DNA of 44,021 nt from Clostridiaceae bacterium (GTDB lineage: Bacteria; Bacillota; Clostridia; DUPQ01): assembly GCA_012729955.1 (NCBI GenBank), contig JAAYBX010000099.1, positions 1 to 44,021 on the forward strand, read 5' to 3'. The notes below the pieces were generated by a model. That model was not told the origin of the DNA, searched no databases, and saw only the letters and a list, made by a program, of their open reading frames with translations. This document shows, piece by piece, positions 3 to 37,518 of this stretch. Made by a program: the position numbers and the translations under genes. The first letter of the stretch is position 1. Every line of letters starts with the position of its first letter.

Positions 3-1607
3 AGAGAAGAGATAAGTGAGCAGATACGTGCATTATCTGAACTGACAGAAATGGCAGCTTCATACGGATTTGATATAACAAAACCAGCAACTGATACGAA
101 AGAAGCAATACAGTGGCTGTATTTCGGATATCTTGGGGCAATAAAAGAGCAGAACGGAGCAGCTATGAGTCTTGGAAGAGTATCTACATTCCTAGATATA
201 TATGCAGAAGAGGATTTGAAAAATGGAAAGTATACTGAGTCAGAAATACAGGAATTGGTAGATAATTTTATTATAAAACTACGGATGGTCCGCTTTTTGA
301 GGACTCCTGAATATGACGAACTGTTTAGTGGCGATCCGGTATGGGTAACAGAAGCCATTGGAGGGGTATGTGAAAATGGAAGACATATGGTTACAAAGAT
401 GAGTTACCGTTTCCTGCATTCCCTCATAAACCTCGGTCCTGCACCTGAACCCAATCTTACTATCTTGTGGAGTGAAGGTCTTCCTCAGCATTTTAAGAAC
501 TATGTAGCTTCTATTTCTATAAAGACATCATCAATCCAGTATGAGAATGATGATATAATGAGGCCTATTTATGGTGATGATTACGGTATAGCATGCTGCG
601 TTTCTGCAATGAGAATAGGAAAACAGATGCAGTTCTTCGGAGCACGAGTGAATTTAGGAAAAGCTTTACTGTATGCCATAAACGGCGGAAAAGATGAGAT
701 ATATGGGACGCAGATAACTGATGCATTTGAACCGATAACATCAGAATATCTTGATTACAATGAAGTAATGAAAAAGTATGACTATGTTTGTGAATGGCTT
801 GCCAAACTGTATATAAATACTCTTAATGTCATACACTATATGCATGACAAATACTGCTATGAACGTATTGAAATGGCTCTTCATGATGAAGAAGTTATAA
901 GGACTATGGCATGCGGAATAGCAGGATTAAGTGTTGTCACAGATAGTTTATCAGCTATTAAACATACAAAGGTGCGTGTAATACGTAATGAACAGGGACT
1001 AGCGGTAGATTTTGAATTAGAAGGGGATTATCCGAAGTTTGGCAATAATAATCCGGCAGTTGATGAGATAGCGGCTAGTGTTGTGAGAGATTTCATGGAT
1101 AAACTAAGAGGCCATAAGACATACAGGAATGCGAGGCCGACTATGTCAGTACTGACTATTACTTCAAATGTCGTATATGGAAAGAAGACTGGTTCAACTC
1201 CTGATGGAAGGAAAGCCGGCGAACCTTTTGCACCAGGTGCAAATCCTTTGCATGGACGTGACAGCCATGGAAGTATAGCAAGTATGAGAAGCGTGGCATA
1301 TCTTCCATATGAGCATGCTGAAGACGGGATTTCATATACATTCAGCATAATACCAGATGCACTTGGAAAGACAGAAGAAATAAGAAAAAATAACTTAACA
1401 GCTTTACTTGACGGATACTTTGCAGATTCGGGACATCACATAAATGTGAATGTGTTGAATAAGGAAGTATTGCTCGATGCAATGGAGCATCCGGAGAAAT
1501 ATCCTCAGCTCACAATTCGGGTAAGCGGTTATGCAGTAAATTTCATAAAAATGACAAGAGAGCAGCAGCTTGATGTAATATTCCGTACATATCATGAGAA
1601 ACTTTAA
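3..1607 (+). CDS. pflB: Formate C-acetyltransferase (pyruvate formate-lyase), 5'-truncated by the window edge
   Basis: Glycyl radical enzyme that converts pyruvate and CoA to acetyl-CoA and formate in anaerobic fermentation, in the cytoplasm. The reading frame is open from base 3 with no stop upstream, so the gene enters from outside. About 534 residues are visible of the usual 740-760, so roughly 200-220 N-terminal residues are missing. The paired active-site cysteines are seen in 'IACCVSAM' (PFL has CCVSPM), and the glycyl radical motif '[10 protein letters not shown]' sits 29 residues or fewer from the C terminus, as expected. The motifs '[18 protein letters not shown]' and 'GHHINVNVL' are also classic PFL. 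It is followed by its activase gene and a Crp-family gene in one operon-like array. Identity is as sure as motif reading allows. Confidence 0.96.
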
Positions 1608-1664
1608 GGTATATAATTTAGTGATGAAATCTAATTTGTATTAAATTTATATGAAAGGGTGAAA

Positions 1665-2471
1665 ATGAGCGTAAAAGGCTGGATACATTCAATAGAATCA
1701 TTCGGTACGGTGGACGGGCCAGGAATTAGATATGTCCTGTTCGTACAAGGCTGTCCTTTAAAGTGCCTTTACTGCCATAATCCCGACACTTGGAGCGTCT
1801 ATGAGGATAGAGACAAGCACAAAAAAGATACAGTCTGTGCAAAAAGATCAGGAGAAATGACTGATTCGGAAACGATAGTCAATGATATCTTAAGCTATAA
1901 AGGTTATATAAAAACAGGCGGAGTTACAATCTCAGGAGGAGAGCCTCTAATGCAGATTGAATTTGTGCTGGATATAATAAAAAGGTGTAAAGAAAACGGC
2001 ATACATACGGCTATAGATACTTCAGGATGCATATCAGTTACACGTTCAAAAGCAGTAATTGATGAAGTTGATCTTGTGTTATTGGATATAAAGAGTTTAG
2101 ATAATAAGCAGGCTATAAAGCTTACTGGAAGCAGTAATGTAAATACATTAGCTACTTTGGATTACTGTGAAAAGATAAATAAGAAAGTCTGGATCCGTCA
2201 TGTCCTCTTGCCAGGATGGACAATGGATATGAAAAGGTTAAATGACTTAGCAGATTATCTGAAACCGTATAAATGCATTGAAATGTTGGAGCTTCTTCCA
2301 TTTCATAAGATGGGTGAGTATAAATGGAAAGAGTTAGGTCTTGATTATACGCTATCAAAGACAGCAGAACCTGACAGAAATGATGTTGAGAGGGTAAAAC
2401 AGATTTTTATAAATAAAGGATTTTCACTGAACATTACTGCATCATATGGCGTGAAATCCAAAGGAGTATGA
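1665..2471 (+). CDS. pflA: Pyruvate formate-lyase activating enzyme (radical SAM)
   Basis: Radical SAM enzyme that installs the glycyl radical on PflB, reductively cleaving S-adenosylmethionine on a [4Fe-4S] cluster. The start of the protein has the family pattern 'SFGTVDGPGIRYVLFVQGC' followed by the cluster motif CPLKCLYCHNPDTW (C-x3-C-x2-C). 'GGVTISGGEPLMQ' is the SAM-binding GGE region. There is no ferredoxin insertion between these, as in true PFL activases and unlike the second activase at 32.4 kb. A GTG lies at 1659, but the ATG at 1665 has the better spacing to the GAAAGGG ribosome binding site. The stop codon abuts the ATG of the next gene (crp-like), so translation is probably coupled. 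At about 268 residues it is slightly longer than most PflA proteins (about 245). Confidence 0.95.
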   Translation: MSVKGWIHSIESFGTVDGPGIRYVLFVQGCPLKCLYCHNPDTWSVYEDRDKHKKDTVCAKRSGEMTDSETIVNDILSYKGYIKTGGVTISGGEPLMQIEFVLDIIKRCKENGIHTAIDTSGCISVTRSKAVIDEVDLVLLDIKSLDNKQAIKLTGSSNVNTLATLDYCEKINKKVWIRHVLLPGWTMDMKRLNDLADYLKPYKCIEMLELLPFHKMGEYKWKELGLDYTLSKTAEPDRNDVERVKQIFINKGFSLNITASYGVKSKGV

Positions 2472-6216: not shown

Positions 6217-6999
6217 ATGGAAAATAAAATTTTCACGAAACTAAGAAGATTCAATCTGTTTATGGGGTGTCTGCACTTTGTACAAGGTTTAATGATGCTT
6301 ATCCTTTCTCTGACATGGTCAAACATAAAAGAATTCACACCAATTATCTATTCGTATTTCTTAAAATTTGATACACAGGCAATGAGGCTTGTAACAGAGA
6401 CTGACCAGTTATTCAAGCTGCCATTCGGTATTCTTGTATCAGCATTTCTTTTCTTATCCGCACTTGCTCATTTTATAATAAGTTTACCTAAAAAAACGAA
6501 TGACATATACAATAATGATTTAAAAAAGAATATCAATCAGTTCAGGTGGTATGAATATGCTCTGTCATCATCACTTATGATAATACTTATTGCAGTATTA
6601 TTCGGTGTGTTTGATATTGGCGCATTAATTGCTATATTTCTTCTTAATGCTTCAATGAATCTTTTCGGTCTTTTAATGGAGAAGATGAATCAGAACAGGG
6701 AAAAGACTGACTGGACCGCATTCATATTCGGTTCATTAGCAGGTATAGGCCCATGGATAGTTATAGCCCTTTATGGATTTGGTAATGCAGATCCTGCTGA
6801 AGTACCATGGTTTGTATATGCTATAGTCGGAACATATTTTGTTTTCTTTAATCTTTTCCCGATTAACATGATATTGCAGTATAGAAAGAAGGGCAAATGG
6901 GCAGATTACCTTCATGGCGAGAGAGGATATATTATCTTAAGCCTTTGTGCTAAAACAGTACTTGCTTGGCTTGTGCTGTTTGGGGTAATGCAACCGTAA
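6217..6999 (+). CDS. Heliorhodopsin
   Basis: A 260-residue seven-helix membrane protein of the heliorhodopsin family. These are retinal-binding proteins with inverted topology (N terminus cytoplasmic), distinct from type-1 rhodopsins. The retinal-binding lysine is K246 in 'LSLCAKTVLAWLV', matching the family's SLxAKxxLAWQ helix 7. The helix-3 counterion glutamate is E113 in 'QFRWYEYALSSSLMI'. Other hallmarks are 'FLLNASMNLFGLLME', 'GPWIVIALYGFG', 'FNLFPINMILQYR' and 'WADYLHGERGYIILSL'. No retinal or carotenoid synthesis gene lies in the window, so chromophore supply is unexplained. It is flanked by a decayed block and a tRNA-Ala gene 12 bp downstream, and it is probably monocistronic. The family's function is unsettled: photocycles are slow and no ion pumping is seen in most members. 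Confidence 0.93.
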   Translation: MENKIFTKLRRFNLFMGCLHFVQGLMMLILSLTWSNIKEFTPIIYSYFLKFDTQAMRLVTETDQLFKLPFGILVSAFLFLSALAHFIISLPKKTNDIYNNDLKKNINQFRWYEYALSSSLMIILIAVLFGVFDIGALIAIFLLNASMNLFGLLMEKMNQNREKTDWTAFIFGSLAGIGPWIVIALYGFGNADPAEVPWFVYAIVGTYFVFFNLFPINMILQYRKKGKWADYLHGERGYIILSLCAKTVLAWLVLFGVMQP

Positions 7000-28603: not shown

Positions 28604-28632
28604 TATTATGTTAGTATTTGAGGAGGTTAATA

Positions 28633-28947
28633 ATGATAGAGCAGGTATTTAAGTTATCCACAGGGGATACAAAAGCAATCGAGAAAGTGATATTTGACGA
28701 AAATCTTCACTACATACATCTGGTCTTCAACAAAGATGACAGTCTTCCTGAACACTATTCCAATTCTAATGTATATATGACTGTTATAAGAGGGATTTTA
28801 AGCATCGGGTTAGCAGACCAGCAGATTAAAACATACGAAAAAGGAACACTTCTAAAAATACCGAAAGACACACTTATGAATGTAGGTAACAAGCATGATG
28901 AGGTTTTGGAGATAATAATCGTGAAAGCTCCAGCTCCATTAAAGTGA
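28633..28947 (+). CDS. Small cupin-domain protein
   Basis: A 104-residue single beta-barrel. Cupin motif 1 is recognisable but sparse in metal ligands ('DSLPEHYSNSNVYMTVIRGI' with one His), and motif 2 reads 'KGTLLKIPKDTLMNVGNKHD'. The GGAGG ribosome site is 7 nt before the ATG at 28633; the upstream frame from 28618 is not used. Such small cupins next to Crp-family regulators and ferredoxin proteins are frequent in Clostridia, but no reaction is established. It could bind a metal or small ligand. Confidence 0.78.
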   Translation: MIEQVFKLSTGDTKAIEKVIFDENLHYIHLVFNKDDSLPEHYSNSNVYMTVIRGILSIGLADQQIKTYEKGTLLKIPKDTLMNVGNKHDEVLEIIIVKAPAPLK

Positions 28948-29028
28948 ATATGAGTAAATACCTATTTATTGTTGTATGATTGTGTGAAATAATGCATAAT
29001 CATATTAATGTGAATAAAGGTGGTATAT

Positions 29029-30153
29029 ATGTTACTTACATCAAAAGAAAGAATAATGAGGATTTTTGAGAACAAGCAGATTGACAGGCCTGCTATAAAG
29101 TTATGGGGAGCATGGAAATACCAGGAAGGCGATGAACTGCTTCATCCATCATATGAACCAATTGCTAGAAAAGCGAGCGATATAACAGATCTGTTTATAT
29201 ATGCTCGGTCTCCATATAATATGTATTGCGGGAAGAATGAAAGTATAAGCAGCGAATATGTAGAAATTGGTGATCCCTTATGGGTAAAAAGGCATAATAT
29301 TTACCATACTCCAATGGGAGATTTAAGGCATGTGCAGATGATTTCCAAGGTTGGTGAACCAGGATATACAATTGAGTATCCGGTTAAGGAACCTGATGAT
29401 TTAAAAAAGATATTATCAATTCCCTATACGCCTTATGACTATTCAGATAATATACAAAAACATCAGGATCTATTGAAGGACAGAGGGGTAGTAATGCTGA
29501 CTATTGATCATATCGGTTATTCATTACAACGGTTAACAGGTTCAGAAAATCTTGCTTTATTCAGTTTTGATTGCAGAGAACTGGTTCTAGAAGTTTTAGA
29601 TGTTTTTGCGAAAAGGCTATATGAACATGTACGAACTGCAATTAATAACGGTGTGAGAGTTCCATTTTCTTGGGTAGGACCTGAACTGCTGACACCTCCT
29701 TTAATGACTGATCATGATTTTGATGAATTCTGCTTCAATTATGATAAGCCGATTTGTGATATGGTACACAATGCAGGCAGTTATGTATGGATGCATTGTC
29801 ATGGAAAAGTAAGGAAGCTTCTGGAAAGATACATAAAAATGGGTATAGATATATTAAATCCTCTGGAACCTCCAAAAAATGGTGATGTTGACATGGCTGA
29901 AGCAGCAAAAACATTTAAAGGGCGAATAGGTTTGGAGGGTAATATTGAAATGCAGGATATACTGCTTGAAGAACCGGAAATTTTAAAAGAGTCTATTAAA
30001 AACTGCGTTGAAGCCGGTAAGGAAAGCGGCAGGTTTATTTTATGCCCGTCATCAGGTTTCATGGAATATCCGAAACCTACCCAGCACTATCTGAATAATC
30101 TTATGACATATCTGGATTACGGTTTTGAATGCGTAAATAAAGCGGCATATTAA
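29029..30153 (+). CDS. Uroporphyrinogen decarboxylase-family protein (MtaA/CmuA-like methyltransferase)
   Basis: A cytoplasmic protein of about 374 residues with the URO-D TIM-barrel fold, of the group used by corrinoid-dependent methyltransferases rather than heme synthesis. The zinc-site pattern of that group is visible: 'SYVWMHCHGKVRKLLE' (H-x-C-H) followed ~60 residues later by a Cys in 'FILCPSSGFMEYP'. 'GIDILNPLEPPKNGDVDMAE' and 'GRIGLEGNIEMQDILLEE' are typical. The GTG at 29020 is open, but the ATG at 29029 has AAAGGTGG upstream. It precedes the glycyl radical enzyme gene by 73 bp on the same strand. No corrinoid protein is encoded nearby, so methyl transfer, decarboxylation or another reaction remain open. 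Confidence 0.82.
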   Translation: MLLTSKERIMRIFENKQIDRPAIKLWGAWKYQEGDELLHPSYEPIARKASDITDLFIYARSPYNMYCGKNESISSEYVEIGDPLWVKRHNIYHTPMGDLRHVQMISKVGEPGYTIEYPVKEPDDLKKILSIPYTPYDYSDNIQKHQDLLKDRGVVMLTIDHIGYSLQRLTGSENLALFSFDCRELVLEVLDVFAKRLYEHVRTAINNGVRVPFSWVGPELLTPPLMTDHDFDEFCFNYDKPICDMVHNAGSYVWMHCHGKVRKLLERYIKMGIDILNPLEPPKNGDVDMAEAAKTFKGRIGLEGNIEMQDILLEEPEILKESIKNCVEAGKESGRFILCPSSGFMEYPKPTQHYLNNLMTYLDYGFECVNKAAY

Positions 30154-30226: not shown

Positions 30227-32383
30227 ATGGAAAACGGATTTACATACTCACAGAGGCTTGAAGCGTTATTATCAGCCAAAAGGATACAGACTGAGAAGAA
30301 GATTGCTAAGTTCGGAAGGACCATCGACGTGGATGACAGAGGGAATCTTGTCGTGCCTGATGACTTTGTTTTTTCGCCTGTTCCAAATCATAGCAGCGGA
30401 GGTTTCTTCGGACCTTATGCATGCGGTATGAATTACAAAAAGCTGTTACATGAGCATCCTGTTACAGTAGATGAAAACACAGGTCTTCTTGGGAGCTGGA
30501 TGGTTATGCTTATAGATTACAAGAAGCCTTTATGGAATCCGGATATAAGATTCACACACCTTCATAAAGAACAGAAGATGTATGATATTGTACATGGAAT
30601 CGGGGGTGTACAGCATTTTTTAGCGGATTATTCGCTTGGATTGCAATTAGGATTTAACGGGATAAGAGAAAAAATCAGATTTTATGAGAAAAGCAGCGAT
30701 GCATCTAAGAAAGAATTTTATTATGGCTTAAACGAATGTGTTGCAGGCATATATGATTACATAACAAGGCATATTGCAAGAGCGCGTGAGCTTGCAGAAC
30801 AGATAAATGATAAAGACAGATCCGACAATTTAAATATACTCGCAGATATGAATGAAGAGCTTCTGAAACGACCTGCAAGAACTTTCCATGAAGCGGTCCA
30901 GTGGATGGCTTGGTTTCTTGTTGCCGGTGATATGTATAATGGAGGAGCAAGTGCAATCGGTGATATAGACAGGATACTAAAGCCATACTATGACAATGAT
31001 GTCAGACAAGGAATCTTAACTGAAGAGCAGGCTATTTTCTATATATGCAACTTTCTAATTATTGACAATGCGTACTGTCAGATAGGCGGATGTGACGAAT
31101 TCGGAAAGGATAATACGAATGAATTATCGCATATAGTGCTCGAAGCGGTTCATAAGATGAAAATCCCTGCAAGCGTATGCGTGAGGGTGCATGAGAATAT
31201 AGATAAGGACTTTTTCTATAAATCAGTCAAGTATCTTCTTACTGACAGGACAGGCTCTCCTAATTTCATAGGAGACAAAGCGATGACCGAAGGATTTATG
31301 AGAAACGGTTATTCAAGAGAACTTGCTGTAACAAGAGTGAAATGCGGGTGCCACTGGTGCGCTATACCAGGGAAAGAATACACGCTAAATGACATTGTTA
31401 AGATTAATTTCGTAGCAGTATTTGATACAGCTTTTAAAGACATGATGAACAGCGGTAACCAGCCATCAGTACAACTGTTATGGGATACCTTTGTAAGACA
31501 CATCAACAGAGCAGTCAAGGTAACAGCAGAAGGAATGGATTTTCAGATTGAACATATGCATGAGGTTTTCCCGGAACTTCTGATGGACCTTTTATGTGAA
31601 GGGCCCATTGAGAAGGGAATGGATGCTTCAAACGGAGCTTTGGAATATATTAATCTATGTGTTGACGGAGCAGGATTGGCTGTTGTCGCAGACAGCTTCG
31701 CTGCTTTGGAAAAACGTATTGAGATCAATAATCAGCTAACATGGGGACAGATAGACCAGGCTTTAAAGAACAATTATGATGGATATGAAGATATCCGTCT
31801 TATGATGAAGAACTCTGACCATTATGGTAACGGGGGGACTATTGCTGATACTTATGCTCAAAAGATAGTGAAAGAGTTTGTAACAGCAGTAAAGAAAGAA
31901 CCTACACCTAATGGGCATAATATGATTCCTGGCCTTTTCTCTTGGGCAAATACTATACCGATGGGAAAAGCAGTAGGGGCAACTCCTAACGGAAGACTTG
32001 CTTTTACACCCATATCACATGGCGCAAATCCGTTACCGGGTTTTAAAGACAGCGGTGCATTAACAGCTATGGCTAATGCGGTAGCTTCAGTACAGTGCGG
32101 ATATGGCAATACCGTACCGATACAGCTGGAGATAAATCCTGTCACATTGAAAGGTGAAGAAGGCATAGCAACTATGATGACTTTCATTTATGCTTATTTG
32201 AATAAAATGGGCGGAACTTTAATGAATATAAATATAATGGACAAAGAGAAGTTACTTGATGCGCACAAAGATCCATCGAAATACCCTGAACTGATTGTAA
32301 GGGTAACCGGATTCTGCGCATATTTCGCTTTATTATCAGAGGATTTTAGAAAACTGGTGGTAGACAGGATGATTAATGAATAA
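30227..32383 (+). CDS. Glycyl radical enzyme of unrecognised substrate class (PFL-like fold)
   Basis: 718 residues, shorter than most non-PFL glycyl radical enzymes (780-850). The glycyl radical loop is 'LIVRVTGFCAYFALL' with the radical at G695. 'HGANPLPGFKDSGALTAMAN' and 'ATPNGRLAFTPI' are the usual region before it. The thiyl-radical loop reads 'TRVKCGCHWCAIPGKEYTLN' with C373, C375 and C378. The eliminase and decarboxylase classes I know (choline lyase, diol dehydratases, hydroxyproline dehydratase) have GCVE with a Glu base; here the Glu is replaced by Trp and extra cysteines are present. The stop overlaps the activase ATG by 8 bp, so the pair is coupled. The substrate cannot be named. 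It is assigned to the superfamily with high confidence, to function with none. Confidence 0.93.
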   Translation: MENGFTYSQRLEALLSAKRIQTEKKIAKFGRTIDVDDRGNLVVPDDFVFSPVPNHSSGGFFGPYACGMNYKKLLHEHPVTVDENTGLLGSWMVMLIDYKKPLWNPDIRFTHLHKEQKMYDIVHGIGGVQHFLADYSLGLQLGFNGIREKIRFYEKSSDASKKEFYYGLNECVAGIYDYITRHIARARELAEQINDKDRSDNLNILADMNEELLKRPARTFHEAVQWMAWFLVAGDMYNGGASAIGDIDRILKPYYDNDVRQGILTEEQAIFYICNFLIIDNAYCQIGGCDEFGKDNTNELSHIVLEAVHKMKIPASVCVRVHENIDKDFFYKSVKYLLTDRTGSPNFIGDKAMTEGFMRNGYSRELAVTRVKCGCHWCAIPGKEYTLNDIVKINFVAVFDTAFKDMMNSGNQPSVQLLWDTFVRHINRAVKVTAEGMDFQIEHMHEVFPELLMDLLCEGPIEKGMDASNGALEYINLCVDGAGLAVVADSFAALEKRIEINNQLTWGQIDQALKNNYDGYEDIRLMMKNSDHYGNGGTIADTYAQKIVKEFVTAVKKEPTPNGHNMIPGLFSWANTIPMGKAVGATPNGRLAFTPISHGANPLPGFKDSGALTAMANAVASVQCGYGNTVPIQLEINPVTLKGEEGIATMMTFIYAYLNKMGGTLMNINIMDKEKLLDAHKDPSKYPELIVRVTGFCAYFALLSEDFRKLVVDRMINE

Positions 32384-33287
32384 GACATACGGCTGCATAT
32401 TTGATATACAGCGATTCTCTCTTCATGATGGTCCTGGAATAAGAACCACGATTTTTTTTAAAGGGTGTAATCTTAGGTGTTTCTGGTGTCACAATCCAGA
32501 ATCCATAAATCTGCAACCTGAAATACAAGTATATGCGCATAAATGCATTCACTGTGGAAAATGTATTACGGTGTGTCCGCAAAATGCTATTTACAAGAAT
32601 GGCAGTTCCTTTGTTTTTTCTAGGGATTTATGTATGAAGTGCGGAAAATGTGTAGATTCGTGTTATACGAATGCGAGAGTAATGGCAGGAAAGACAGTCA
32701 GCGCATCAGAAGTAATGTCAGAAATAATGAAGGATGAGCCTTTCTACAATGATAATCAGGGAGGAGTAACTTTTTCAGGCGGTGAGCCTATGCTTCAACC
32801 GGGGTTTTTAAAAACCTTGCTTGTAGCATGTAAAGAAAAAAAGATTCATACTGCTGTTGATACTGCAGGTAATGTCGCATTTGAAAAGTTTGCTGAAATA
32901 GCTCCTTATACTGATCTTTTTTTGTATGATATAAAATGTGTAGACGAGAAGAAGCACAAGCAAGTTACTGGTTCAAATAACAAAAAGATACTTGCAAATC
33001 TCGTACTACTTGATGAGATTGCAAAAGAGATAATAATTAGGATTCCGATAATACCGGGCATGAATGATACAGATGAAGATATGCATGCAATCGGTATTTT
33101 ACTGAGAAACTTAAAGAAAGTTACTAAAGTCCAGCTTCTTCCATTTCATAATATGGCTGAATCAAAATATGAAAGTATGGGAATGGAGTATAAAGCCAAG
33201 GATTTATCCGCACCAAAAAAAGAAAGGATGCAGCAGTTTGCATCCATAATTTCCTCGTATGACATAAACGCCATAGCAATCAGTTAG
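32376..33287 (+). CDS. Glycyl radical enzyme activating enzyme (radical SAM with two ferredoxin clusters)
   Basis: A 303-residue activase for the preceding enzyme. The radical SAM cluster motif is 'FKGCNLRCFWCHNPESINL' (C-x3-C-x2-C). Between this and the GGE motif ('GGVTFSGGEPMLQPGFLKTL') is an inserted ferredoxin domain with 'CIHCGKCITVCPQNAI' and 'CMKCGKCVDSCYTNAR'. That insertion is typical of activases of non-PFL glycyl radical enzymes such as those for choline, glycerol, arylacetates and toluene. The start 'GCIFDIQRFSLHDGPGIRTT' is canonical. Its stop overlaps the stop of the convergent glycosidase gene by 4 bp, with no room for a terminator. Confidence 0.95.
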   Translation: MNKTYGCIFDIQRFSLHDGPGIRTTIFFKGCNLRCFWCHNPESINLQPEIQVYAHKCIHCGKCITVCPQNAIYKNGSSFVFSRDLCMKCGKCVDSCYTNARVMAGKTVSASEVMSEIMKDEPFYNDNQGGVTFSGGEPMLQPGFLKTLLVACKEKKIHTAVDTAGNVAFEKFAEIAPYTDLFLYDIKCVDEKKHKQVTGSNNKKILANLVLLDEIAKEIIIRIPIIPGMNDTDEDMHAIGILLRNLKKVTKVQLLPFHNMAESKYESMGMEYKAKDLSAPKKERMQQFASIISSYDINAIAIS

Positions 33288-35437
33288 TGAGACTTGTTGA
33301 TATTAAACACTATATTAACTTTGTTATCAGTAGGTTCGATAACAGCTTTTTGTCCGGTAATTATTAAAGAGCCGCCTGATGTGCTTGCTAGTGATACTTT
33401 TGCATTCTTATCAGGAAGCCGCAAATATATGCAAAGTTTCTTACTCTTATCAAAAGCTTTCAAATCTGTGGTAAAAGTAATGGTTTCTTCAGATATTTGA
33501 ATGCGGAAAGATATTTTACCCCAGAATGTAGGAGCATCCTTTACCTCAATTAGATTACCTTCTTCATAGAAATATCTTGGGACTGCGCATGTTATATGCA
33601 GCATATCATCGTTAAAAAGATGATCTGATATAAGCATATCCCTTACAAACTGTGTGATACATATCGGCGTCCATGCATGCTGAAGGTCACCGGTTATCTT
33701 TTTCGCCCCCTTTTCCTCTGTTCTTTCCTCACACCATGTGAATAGCGGTGTTCCATGATTAAGTGCCGAAACAAGATAATCGGCTGAAATGTCTGCTTTA
33801 TCAGACAGTATGTTGACATAAGCCATTGCATCCAATGCAATAGCGACCCATAATCCGTCAGGTATCCATCCAAGATTTTTGGGAAGTCCTCCCGTACTTA
33901 TATTACTTTGAAGTTTATTCATCGTACCCACTGCCAATGGATGATTTACTGAAAGTATGTTAGATGGATAAACCGCATCAGCTACACCCCATCTGCTCCC
34001 GGATTTATTATAAGCGGACCCGCCTATCCAGATAGAGCCATCCTGTTCTTTTATGTGGCCTTCTTCCAATGATTTTAATATGCATCCTTTGTAATCCAGA
34101 TAATCAGCAAGGAGCATAGCATAAACATCATCTCTATTTAACTCTTTTGCTGCCCAGACTGCCGTTTCCAAGCCCATGCAATGCAGGAAGTTGTGAGGAT
34201 AAAATACACCGAAAAGGTCATCATTATCTTTTAAACCACAGTCTCCCATGCCTCTTGGCATTAAACCCCAGTAAGGTGAATCTGGGCTGTTTTTCTGTTT
34301 AGTCTTATCTCTCTGTTCTTTTGACCATTTAGCGGAACGAAGCATTCTTTCAAAGTTTTCCTTTAAAAATTCTTTGTCTCCGGTCCTTAAATAATACTGT
34401 TTGACGCATAAGCTTTTCCATCCGGAGGTAGACCACATATACTTGCCCCATTGCTTGTCATCTTCCCAAGAACCGTTCTCTATCTGAAACTGTGCTACAA
34501 ACTCGATGTTCTCTTTTGCCTGTTCAAAAAAACCATACTTGCTTAAAGCAAGGGATTGAAAACAAGGTTCACCGGTATTTGCGCTTCGGTACATTTCCGT
34601 ACCAGCGAGCCCGGCGATTCTGCCGTCAGCCTGTTCTTCCCTCATGACGAATATATCACATAAGCATGCTTTATATGCGTTTTCAATTAATTGGTCTGGC
34701 AAATCAAACACAGGTGCCTTTCTAATTATATCTTTCCATGCATTTAGTCCTTGTTCGCATAGAGTATTCCAGTCTGTCCCTAACAGAACATCAATATCAT
34801 CATTGTATTTTTTATTAGGGCGGATAAGTATGTTATTGGCGGTTTCTCCAGCCTTCAGCGAATAAGCATATGTCACAGCCTCTCTTCTTGAAGGAACAGT
34901 TCCATTAATGCTGGCATCCATTATTACTATCCTGTCTGAGGCATCATTAAAAATTGGATTGACTACACTGTATTTGCAGTCAAAATCAACCCATTTGGTA
35001 TTTATGGTGTTATCCAGCACGCACGCATCAAGATATACTTTCTTATCCATATCAGTTGTATTGGCAACAGATATATTAAGTACATCTCCAAGTTCAGTAG
35101 CTACACATTGTATAGTTAAAAGTGTTCCATCGGCCTGTGCTTTATATAGTAATGATGGTATGTACCCATCAATTCTTTCCCAGCAAAAAGCTTCCATCGC
35201 TACATCATTACATTTTGCTGTAATTTTAACCTTCCAGTCCAAACGAACTCTTTTATATGCGCCTAAAGGGTTATTTTTTGTATTACTGTCGCTCCATAGC
35301 ATCATTAACGACTCTTTTGTACAGTCAAAAAGTGTCTTGTTGCTTGATTCTGGCAGGCATACACATATCCTGTGAGGCTCAGCAAAAGCATAACTGAAAT
35401 CAATTTGTGTTTTTTTCATTCTACTTGCATGATACAT
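33284..35437 (-). CDS. Six-hairpin (alpha/alpha)6-barrel glycosidase-like protein
   Basis: A 717-residue protein without a signal peptide. An N-terminal beta-sandwich (about 1-240) is followed by an all-helical catalytic region rich in 'GSWEDDKQWGKYMWSTSGWK', 'GLMPRGMGDCG', 'FYPHNFLHCMGLETAVWAAK' and 'DLQHAWTPICITQFVRDML', then a C-terminal beta-domain. This resembles GH78/GH95/GH127-like intracellular glycosidases, with acidic residues in the ED and D-C-G loops as candidate catalysts. The family number cannot be set by eye. It is the last gene of a three-gene minus-strand unit. The start is ambiguous: ATG 35437 or ATG 35419. It is probably the enzyme that releases the sugar part or acts on the cluster's substrate, which is inferred. 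Confidence 0.65.
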   Translation of the reverse strand: MYHASRMKKTQIDFSYAFAEPHRICVCLPESSNKTLFDCTKESLMMLWSDSNTKNNPLGAYKRVRLDWKVKITAKCNDVAMEAFCWERIDGYIPSLLYKAQADGTLLTIQCVATELGDVLNISVANTTDMDKKVYLDACVLDNTINTKWVDFDCKYSVVNPIFNDASDRIVIMDASINGTVPSRREAVTYAYSLKAGETANNILIRPNKKYNDDIDVLLGTDWNTLCEQGLNAWKDIIRKAPVFDLPDQLIENAYKACLCDIFVMREEQADGRIAGLAGTEMYRSANTGEPCFQSLALSKYGFFEQAKENIEFVAQFQIENGSWEDDKQWGKYMWSTSGWKSLCVKQYYLRTGDKEFLKENFERMLRSAKWSKEQRDKTKQKNSPDSPYWGLMPRGMGDCGLKDNDDLFGVFYPHNFLHCMGLETAVWAAKELNRDDVYAMLLADYLDYKGCILKSLEEGHIKEQDGSIWIGGSAYNKSGSRWGVADAVYPSNILSVNHPLAVGTMNKLQSNISTGGLPKNLGWIPDGLWVAIALDAMAYVNILSDKADISADYLVSALNHGTPLFTWCEERTEEKGAKKITGDLQHAWTPICITQFVRDMLISDHLFNDDMLHITCAVPRYFYEEGNLIEVKDAPTFWGKISFRIQISEETITFTTDLKAFDKSKKLCIYLRLPDKNAKVSLASTSGGSLIITGQKAVIEPTDNKVNIVFNINKSH

Positions 35438-35460: not shown

Positions 35461-36264
35461 TTAAATCTGATTTATTCCAAGTATTCTTTTCGCATTACCA
35501 CCCAGTATCATATCTTTGGATGTCTGGTTAATAGGTAAGCTTTTAATAGCGGATATTTCGTTTTTCGCATTGCTCCAGGGTGAGTCAGAACCGAAAAGTA
35601 TCCTGCTTGCTCCATGAATATTAAGTATTCTTAGAAACTGCTCTTTCCCGTAATACTCGAATCCCATGGAAGTATCAAGATATATGTTCTTGCCTGCAAG
35701 ATATTTCTCCACATCATTCCACATATTATGTCCTCCAAGATGAGCAGCAATAATGATTCCGCCTTTCATCCGATCAGCAATAAATGCAAATTTTTCAGGA
35801 TTACTTCTGTATGGAGGAGGCATTCCGTGATCTTCGCCAGCATGGTGCAGAATGATTAAACCTTTATCTAATGCGTAATCATATATTCTTAAAGCTTTTG
35901 GATCATCAATTACAAAGTTCTGATATTCGGCATGAAACTTAATACCTTTGAAACCCAGGCTGCATACGAAATCTATATCTTTTTTATAATCATCAGTGTG
36001 AGGGAAAATTCCACCGAAAGCAATTATCCTGTCATCGGATATGCTTTGAGCCCACAAATTGGTTTTTTCCAATTGAGTCTTTTTTGTTATTATCGTCTGA
36101 ACTACAGATTTATCGATACCCCATTGATCCATTTTATCAATAAGGCTTTTTTTTGTAAGATCAGTCGTTGGCTCATATCTATAATTAATATTCCTTAAAA
36201 GCGTTTCTTTGGCTTTTGGTGCAAGATCATCAGGAAATATATGAGTGTGAAAATCTATTATCAT
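35461..36264 (-). CDS. Amidohydrolase family 2 (ACMSD-like metal-dependent hydrolase/decarboxylase)
   Basis: A TIM-barrel protein of about 267 residues. Metal ligands are visible in order: 'MIIDFHTHIFPDD' (H-x-H), 'FKGIKFHAEYQNF', 'LIILHHAGEDHG', 'IIIAAHLGGHN' and 'RILFGSDSPWSN' (Asp). This branch includes aromatic decarboxylases (ACMSD, gamma-resorcylate decarboxylase) and lactonases such as 4-sulfomuconolactone hydrolase. M1 at 36282 overlaps the ribosome site; the ATG at 36264 has AAAGGAAG at the proper distance. It lies between a sugar-type dehydrogenase and a glycosidase in one unit, which favours a lactone or ring-opened sugar-acid substrate over a simple aromatic, though not decisively. 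Confidence 0.82.
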   Translation of the reverse strand: MIIDFHTHIFPDDLAPKAKETLLRNINYRYEPTTDLTKKSLIDKMDQWGIDKSVVQTIITKKTQLEKTNLWAQSISDDRIIAFGGIFPHTDDYKKDIDFVCSLGFKGIKFHAEYQNFVIDDPKALRIYDYALDKGLIILHHAGEDHGMPPPYRSNPEKFAFIADRMKGGIIIAAHLGGHNMWNDVEKYLAGKNIYLDTSMGFEYYGKEQFLRILNIHGASRILFGSDSPWSNAKNEISAIKSLPINQTSKDMILGGNAKRILGINQI

Positions 36265-36351
36265 ACCGCTCTTCCTTTTCATTTACTGAATATAACATCA
36301 TAATCTCTTATATTCAAGGAGACTTTGGAACATATTCCGCATATATGGTTT

Positions 36352-37518
36352 TTATCTGACTGAATTCACATTCACCCAACAGTTTTCCTTGATGGATAAT
36401 TCCACAGCATCCAAAACCTGGCTGCATTTCAAACCGTCATAAAAGTCAGGTTTTGTATTTGTGTCGTTTGATATGCTTTCGAAAAACTCATAAAACTCAT
36501 GAACAAATGTATTTTCATATCCTATAACATGACCTGCAGGCCACCATGATTGCATATATGGATGTATACCTTCAGATGCTTGGATGAGGCGGAATCCTTT
36601 ATATTCTTCTTCATCTTCCATGTTGTAGTAAAGAAGTTCATTCATTCTTTCAAAATAGAATTTCATACTTCCTTTTTCTCCGTTTATTTCAAAGTACATA
36701 TCATTCTTGTGACCGCCTGCAAATCTTGTAGTTTCAATAGTGCCAAGAGCACCATTAGTGAATTTCATAAGAAATATAGTTGCATCATCAACATCTACTT
36801 CTTCCATTATCGCATTAGCATTCTTTTTCTGAGCGGAAAGACCTGTCATTTCCTGTACAGAAGGTCTTTGCTTTATAAATGTCTCGCTAATAGCGGATAC
36901 TTTTTCAATATCAGAAACTAAAAATCTGGCTAAATCCACAACATGAGCGCCTAAATCCCCTAATGAGCCGGAACCAGCTACTTTTTTATCCAGCCTCCAC
37001 ACTTTCGGGAAATCAGGATCCATTATCCAGTCCTGCAGGAACGCTCCTCTGAAATGAAATATCCTTCCAAGCTTATTCTGTTCAATCATTTTTTTTGCAA
37101 GCATAATAGCAGGGACATATCTGTAGTTGAACCCTATCTGATGTTTAATTCCTGCTTCATTGGCTGCTTTATACATCATCAGGGCATCTGCATAATTGAG
37201 AGCAAGAGGTTTTTCACAGAAAATATGTTTTTTTGCTTCAGCTGCAGCTATTGCAGGCTCTTTATGAAAATCGGATGGAGCAGTTATATCTATAACATGT
37301 ATGTCAACCCTCTTAATTAATTCTTTCCATGAAGTCATGTGTTCAGAAAATCCATATTTCTTTGCTGCAGAAGAAACGCTTTTTTCATCTCGTCCGCAAA
37401 TAACCTTTCTGACTATATTATCTGTCACGTTGAAAAACATCGGTAACATGGAAAATGCATTAGAATGAGCCTTGCCCATGAATTTATAACCTATAAGGCC
37501 AACATTTATATCCTTCAT
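36352..37518 (-). CDS. Gfo/Idh/MocA-family NAD(P)-dependent oxidoreductase
   Basis: 388 residues. The N-terminal Rossmann fold has 'NVGLIGYKFMGKAHSNAF', and the family's EKP motif is in 'KHIFCEKPLALNYADALM'. The C-terminal domain opens with 'QIGFNYRYVPAIMLAKKMIE' and 'SGSLGDLGAHVVDLARFLVS', the latter carrying the conserved D-x-G-x-H-x-x-D residues. Members oxidise or reduce sugars, inositols or, in some cases, deglycosylate by a keto intermediate. It is the first gene of the unit with the amidohydrolase and glycosidase; a keto-sugar route in which it oxidises a glycoside and the others process the product fits the order of genes, as inference. Confidence 0.92.
   Translation of the reverse strand: MKDINVGLIGYKFMGKAHSNAFSMLPMFFNVTDNIVRKVICGRDEKSVSSAAKKYGFSEHMTSWKELIKRVDIHVIDITAPSDFHKEPAIAAAEAKKHIFCEKPLALNYADALMMYKAANEAGIKHQIGFNYRYVPAIMLAKKMIEQNKLGRIFHFRGAFLQDWIMDPDFPKVWRLDKKVAGSGSLGDLGAHVVDLARFLVSDIEKVSAISETFIKQRPSVQEMTGLSAQKKNANAIMEEVDVDDATIFLMKFTNGALGTIETTRFAGGHKNDMYFEINGEKGSMKFYFERMNELLYYNMEDEEEYKGFRLIQASEGIHPYMQSWWPAGHVIGYENTFVHEFYEFFESISNDTNTKPDFYDGLKCSQVLDAVELSIKENCWVNVNSVR

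Follow-up and report, generated by a model that had tools for sequence, protein, structure and literature searches.

A glycyl radical enzyme family carrying tryptophan in place of the C-x-E glutamate

Introduction

The presence, in a Clostridia genome, of a glycyl radical enzyme (GRE) whose active-site loop lacks the C-x-E glutamate raises the question of whether this loss is confined to one protein, and of which reaction such an enzyme could catalyse. GREs are oxygen-sensitive radical enzymes. In relatives, a glycyl radical oxidises a cysteine to a thiyl radical, which in turn abstracts a hydrogen atom from the substrate (PMC11528403). The C-x-E glutamate following this cysteine has been described as conserved in GRE eliminases, as base or as an essential residue (PMC7077986, PMC12451663, PMC6453916). 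The gene lies in a 44,021-nucleotide stretch of a Clostridiaceae bacterium (contig JAAYBX010000099.1, positions 1 to 44,021, hereafter the window), for which a first-pass annotation made from the sequence alone had reported the missing glutamate and proposed a reaction that differs from the eliminations already known. The observation is correct; we extend it here to a whole family, and the interpretation given to it proves partly right.

Results

The GRE gene and its locus

The GRE gene (30227..32383, + strand) starts with an ATG, has an AGGA-type ribosome-binding site upstream and encodes a 718-amino-acid protein that matches PF02901 (residues 125-580, 313.5 bits for a cut-off of 24.3, E-value 4.5e-93) and PF01228 (residues 597-700, 64.0 bits for a cut-off of 22.2, E-value 2.1e-17). 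The latter match and the motif RVTGFCAYF (residues 692-700, 32300..32326, + strand), in which RVTGF at 692-696 conforms to RVxG[FWY], confirm G695 (codon 32309-32311) as the radical glycine recognised in the first pass. The translation also contains the cysteine loop described there, KCGCHWCAIPGKEY (C373, C375, C378), which reads C-G-C-H-W-C-A-I-P-G-K-E over residues 373-384 (31343..31378, + strand; codons of C375 at 31349-31351, W377 at 31355-31357 and E384 at 31376-31378) and, when extended, K372-C-G-C-H-W-C-A-I-P-G-K-E384-Y-T-L-N-D389.

The next gene (32376..33287, + strand), which shares its first 8 bases with the end of the GRE gene, stop codon included, encodes a radical-SAM activase. 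The ferredoxin insertion attributed to it in the first pass was found as two ferredoxin-type 4Fe-4S repeats, alongside the CX3CX2C motif CNLRCFWC; the protein reaches 366.6 bits with TIGR02494 (cut-off 174), and its nearest model is that of the HypD activase (376 bits, under that model's cut-off of 425). Directly upstream of the GRE, and in the same operon, is a gene for a URO-D/MtaA-like protein (29020..30153, + strand), which scores 34 bits against TIGR01463 for a cut-off of 235. A possibly co-transcribed gene at 28618..28947 (+ strand) encodes a small protein that is cupin-like by eye, without a Pfam match. On the minus strand lie a gene for a 717-amino-acid protein with a weak resemblance to oligosaccharide amylases (33284..35437), convergent with the activase and also adjoining the GRE in its closest relative (L046/L063), a gene for an Amidohydro_2 protein (35461..36282) and, 4 kb downstream of the GRE, a gene for a levoglucosan-dehydrogenase-like Gfo/Idh/MocA sugar dehydrogenase (36352..37518, 419.5 bits for a cut-off of 650).

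A sister genome carries an intact copy that is 81% identical to the window GRE, with a dN of 0.13 and saturated synonymous sites; intact homologues and this dN rule out a pseudogene or an assembly artefact. Two further GREs occur in the genome to which the window belongs: the C-terminal part of a classical pyruvate formate-lyase (PFL), truncated at the start of the contig, with a CCVS loop and followed by a PflA-type activase (window 51-2471, + strand), and a 792-amino-acid protein with a GCQE loop and an RIHGTF glycine motif that forms a lone branch in the tree (C189:11781-13562, - strand). The window also encodes a heliorhodopsin (6217-6999, + strand; PF18761, E-value 2.5e-100), in what is apparently an anaerobic Clostridia genome.

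Tryptophan occupies the glutamate position

We aligned 193 GREs, comprising 106 members of the GC[HNQ]W family, gathered by searches of the window's own order, its own class and GTDB, and 87 others, made up of sequences from the same class, the YbiW and PflD proteins of E. coli, and HypD and CutC sequences validated with NCBIfam. The C375 column holds a cysteine in 193/193 sequences, and C375 is by homology the catalytic cysteine. The phmmer, profile and MAFFT alignments all place C375 on the catalytic cysteine of GCVE enzymes, W377 on the glutamate and C378 on the following residue, so that C375-H376-W377 stands where eliminases of this class (GD, PD, CutC, HypD, IslA/IseG, HpsG and PflD) have C-x-E. 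A misalignment hiding a standard C-x-E elsewhere, which would have run counter to the first-pass reading, is thereby ruled out.

Tryptophan is found at this position in 106/106 family members and in 0/87 other GREs. The loop is GCHW in 81 sequences, GCNW in 23 and GCQW in 2, and own-class members retrieved by a protein search without a motif requirement all carry the tryptophan, which therefore is not a chance substitution. H130, C375, W377, E384, D389 and D480 are invariant in the family (n=106), H598 is conserved in 100/106, and the glycine motif is kept wherever it is complete. C373 (S/V/A), H376 (H/N/Q) and C378 (M/S/C) vary. They thus do not belong to the family signature and are ruled out as catalytic residues, and the three cysteines and a histidine to which the first-pass annotation gave meaning are a local trait. 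The signature is instead W377 at the C-x-E glutamate position, with E384 and D389, in the pattern GC[HNQ]W...PGxE...D. H130 corresponds to HypD His160, and its column holds a histidine in 63/66 other GREs; the H160Q variant of HypD is inactive (PMC7077986). D389 aligns with the aspartate of the glycerol dehydratase and PflD loops. A paired swap was also observed between two other columns, most other GREs having Asn633/Gln667 and all GC[HNQ]W members Gln633/Asn667 (window-GRE numbering).

The part played by the missing residue differs among known enzymes. As had been stated for the diol-dehydratase, choline-lyase and hydroxyproline-dehydratase classes alike, it is a proton acceptor in CutC, where Glu491 takes the hydroxyl proton (PMC12451663), and an equivalent role was proposed in IseG (PMC6453916). 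For the hydroxyproline-dehydratase class that statement is too simple, since Glu436 of HypD, though essential, has been proposed to bind the leaving hydroxyl rather than to act as a base (PMC7077986).

The invariant E384 lies at +9 of the catalytic cysteine, and with the loss of the glutamate at +2 this looks like a swap between the two positions. The family could then be an ordinary diol-dehydratase-type eliminase in which E384 has moved into the glutamate's place with the same chemistry. We regard this as rather unlikely, because HypD has a glutamate at +9 together with the one at +2, and this residue, Glu443, is without mention in the HypD structure paper (PMC7077986); the +9 position may therefore not face the pocket, and E384 may be structural.

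A separate clade found in many phyla

Searches give at least 878 bits for family members and at most 308 bits for all other GREs, and the tree separates sequences with the tryptophan from those without it with a support of 1.0, on a long branch (length 1.48). The GC[HNQ]W sequences thus form one clade, in agreement with the earlier suspicion that the protein belongs to a cluster without a characterised GRE. No named NCBIfam GRE family was reached: the best match was to the TIGR01774 subfamily (278.6 bits, cut-off 678), and the equivalogs tested (CutC, HypD, HpsG/HpfG, IAD, HPAD, PflD-type and PFL) gave at most 241 bits for a cut-off of about 1000. Taken with the alignment and the tree, these scores rule out membership in a characterised GRE cluster. 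In the open-licence literature, a scope outside which most subscription papers fall, we found no description of the family, nor of a GRE with URO-D or MocA; the family probably sits among the uncharacterised clusters of published GRE networks (e.g. PMC6453916).

A scan of GTDB species genomes returned 547 relatives. The best 80 of these include Clostridia, Chloroflexi, Bathyarchaeota, Poribacteria, Latescibacteria, Ignavibacteria, Bacteroidota, Planctomycetota, Verrucomicrobia, Kiritimatiellae, Lentisphaerae, Acidobacteria and spirochaetes, besides other groups; judging by the titles, every one of the 80 comes from an uncultured genome. The family is present in 8/11 genomes of the window's order and in 28/391 genomes of a spread sample of its class.

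The Clostridia also hold a large radiation of other short GREs (about 660-760 amino acids, L173-L212) with varied cysteine loops, such as GCYE, GCWE, ACWE, GCNQ, GCSQ, GCWG, SCMG, GCNM and GCWD. Several genomes encode between 6 and 14 GREs, in part arranged in tandem, as with the three copies bearing GCNQ in L186 and the several that share a contig in L196-L198.

An eliminase-type fold with a shortened segment

The AlphaFold2 model, built from a 20-sequence family alignment, has a mean pLDDT of 89.4 and a pTM of 0.91. Foldseek ranks glycerol dehydratase (1r8w) at the top, with PflD (8id0) and CutC among the first matches (TMq 0.82-0.84, about 21% identity), and the TMq to most eliminase structures is 0.80-0.85. 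By profile score, PflD leads with 295 bits and glycerol dehydratase follows with 285, as against 105 for PFL and 105-145 for PFL and the succinate synthases together.

The first-pass annotation had remarked on the shortness of the protein, which is due for the most part to the loss of 20 residues between beta2 and beta3 and to a shorter N-terminal region. The beta2-beta3 segment (residues 270-292 of the window GRE) counts 23 residues, whereas long GREs and PFL have a median of 43 and other short GREs range over 23-44, and the deletion is found in all 106 family members. By alignment, the stretch removed is the substrate-facing one that in HypD contains Ser334 and Phe340, two residues which HypD activity requires (PMC7077986).

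Gene neighbourhoods

Context was counted over 108 non-redundant family loci, activases being located by a six-frame search. An activase lies within 600 bp of the GRE in 76/108 loci; the other 32 have none adjacent, several of them despite ample flank. At L038, L059, L076, L082, L128, L131 and L140 the GRE is flanked on either side by about 9 kb in which no activase is near, and the GREs of these loci may be served by a shared activase from another part of the genome. That some 30% of loci stand apart from an activase would fit a degenerate or non-catalytic GRE paralogue. We consider this very improbable, given that C375, W377, E384, D389 and H130 are all kept in 106/106 sequences, as is every complete glycine motif, that synonymous sites are saturated at the dN noted above, and that the activase gene overlaps the GRE here.

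The neighbourhoods are variable and many loci are truncated. Genes within four genes of the GRE were compared with those lying farther away on their contigs. Gfo/Idh genes, which 33/108 loci have at 4 kb or less from the GRE, are enriched near it (50/621 near vs 4/284 far, p = 2.7e-5); for URO-D-like genes, found at this distance in 19/108 loci, the enrichment is weaker (18/621 vs 1/284, p = 0.011), and for ABC permeases and TIM barrels it is not significant on its own (p about 0.1). An operon with the order activase, GRE, URO-D, ABC transporter and PfkB-type kinase recurs at L078 and L106, and at L127 without URO-D; the GRE occurs with two Gfo/Idh genes at L034-L040, and with a cupin, a mannose-6-phosphate-isomerase-like protein and a TIM barrel in an operon at L054 and L057. 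Some loci hold sugar ABC transporters, xylose-isomerase-like TIM barrels, FGGY and PfkB-type kinases and glycosidases, and single loci a GH38-type protein or, by eye, sialidase- and fucosidase-like proteins. Judged from gene content, these settings point to carbohydrates, though to no single sugar.

The URO-D-like genes would fit one specific kind of substrate, an O-methylated sugar or related methyl ether from which the enzyme would release methoxy, the URO-D/MtaA-like neighbour handling the C1 unit or the product. Such a gene lies directly upstream of the window GRE and within 4 kb in the loci counted above, one order being activase, GRE, URO-D and ABC transporter, and the host genome has 32 matches to the URO-D/MtaA family and 2 to corrinoid proteins (PF02607). 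In a 2.28-Mb genome that has 32 URO-D matches, however, adjacency is a weak signal; the neighbour falls far below the TIGR01463 cut-off, none of the genes next to it was seen to encode a corrinoid protein, and URO-D and Gfo/Idh genes occur together in only 1 locus. Methoxy release is, on balance, improbable.

A radical sugar epimerase, an isomerase or a C-C bond enzyme, in which C375 would move a hydrogen or start an addition or retro-aldol reaction, has also to be weighed. These reactions need no general base, so the glutamate would be dispensable, and it is gone in every family member; PFL, an enzyme of C-C bond chemistry, has none either and shows, as previously stated, adjacent cysteines (CCVS in 12/12 PFLs). 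The neighbours also include isomerase-type TIM barrels and Gfo/Idh genes. Against these points, the eliminase residues H130 and D389 are retained at 100%, eliminases are the nearest structures and profiles, with PFL and the succinate synthases far lower, and a second conserved cysteine is missing as hydrogen donor, because C373 and C378 vary. Enzymes of this kind are therefore unlikely.

Discussion

Our preferred reading, to which we give slightly less than even confidence, is that the GC[HNQ]W proteins are an uncharacterised family of carbohydrate-active GREs that have the radical-SAM enzyme of the adjoining 3' gene as their activase and act as C-O lyases with a different base. After activation, the G695 radical would oxidise C375 to a thiyl radical, and the latter would take a hydrogen atom from the bound substrate, a derivative of a carbohydrate or polyol. 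The substrate radical would then shed a C-O leaving group, by dehydration, ring opening or cleavage of a glycoside or ether, and the product radical would recover the hydrogen. Hydrogen abstraction by C375 and the role of H130, which would stand in place of the essential eliminase histidine, are well founded by homology, and C-O cleavage is probable in view of the fold, the retained residues and the gene context. With W377 in the place of the C-x-E glutamate, some other group has to take the proton. Candidates are the invariant residues E384, D480, or D389 together with H130; the substrate could also accept it, for instance as a keto-sugar made by the neighbouring Gfo/Idh dehydrogenases, and a ketone-bearing substrate of that kind may need no such base. 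Together with the shortened beta2-beta3 segment, W377 would probably shape a larger, aromatic-floored pocket fitting a sugar ring, and is most simply explained as the floor on which the sugar stacks.

Several facts run against this reading: the family lacks the base by which the eliminase mechanism of other GREs is defined, and of the four essential acid-base residues of HypD (His160, Asp278, Asp339 and Glu436; PMC7077986) only the histidine has a counterpart. The variable and often truncated neighbourhoods, the loci with no adjacent activase, the possibly structural role of E384 and the non-significant enrichment of ABC permeases and TIM barrels also count against it. It is possible, and we propose it more tentatively, that the family is a distinct GRE class that works on carbohydrates without the C-x-E base, with Trp377 as sugar floor and a reaction outside those known for GREs; splitting of a keto-sugar glycoside or of a methyl ether would be examples, as would radical epimerisation. 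The reaction beyond the known eliminations that was proposed in the first pass is thus possible, but the fold and the nearest profiles are those of eliminases, and the eliminase histidine and one substrate-binding aspartate are retained.

A clade of several hundred sequences, in which all members examined have tryptophan for glutamate, spans many phyla including Archaea in settings of sugar catabolism. It shows that the C-x-E motif is dispensable for a widespread GRE, and it suggests that anaerobic carbohydrate breakdown includes a step so far undescribed.

Comparison with known enzymes

Among known systems, PflD and YbiW (8id0, 8yjo, 8id7), the GREs that open the ring of 1,5-anhydromannitol- and anhydroglucitol-6-phosphate by means of a glycyl radical (PMC12441222), have sugar substrates and share with the family the fold (TMq 0.83-0.85) and the histidine of the H130 column. 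PflD has in addition the top profile score and the loop aspartate of the D389 column, and its loop SIPGRTYGLHDI resembles AIPGKEYTLNDI of the window GRE. Unlike PflD (GCVE) and YbiW (GCIE), the family has GC[HNQ]W, at 19-22% identity, and it differs from both in that they have the beta2-beta3 segment, a PTS context and phosphosugar substrates. The B12-independent glycerol and 1,2-propanediol dehydratases (1r8w, 5i2a), which include the top Foldseek match (TMq 0.84), have in common with the family the catalytic cysteine, the H130 and D389 columns and the radical-glycine motif; the family departs from them by its tryptophan and by lacking the beta1 Ser/His motif and the beta2-beta3 segment, at 21% identity. 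With HypD (6vxc) it shares the catalytic cysteine, the essential His160 (H130 here), the glutamate at +9 and the nearest activase model, whereas Asp278, Asp339, Glu436, Ser334 and Phe340 of HypD are without equivalent. PFL is alike in its GRE fold and in lacking the C-x-E glutamate, but the family has G374-C375 instead of adjacent catalytic cysteines, scores about 105 bits against it and has other C-terminal motifs. Finally, the aminoacyl radical enzymes, with an Ala, Ser or Thr radical (PMC11528403), are likewise divergent GRE homologues, many of them metagenomic; they alter the radical residue, whereas the GC[HNQ]W family keeps the glycine and alters the C-x-E position.
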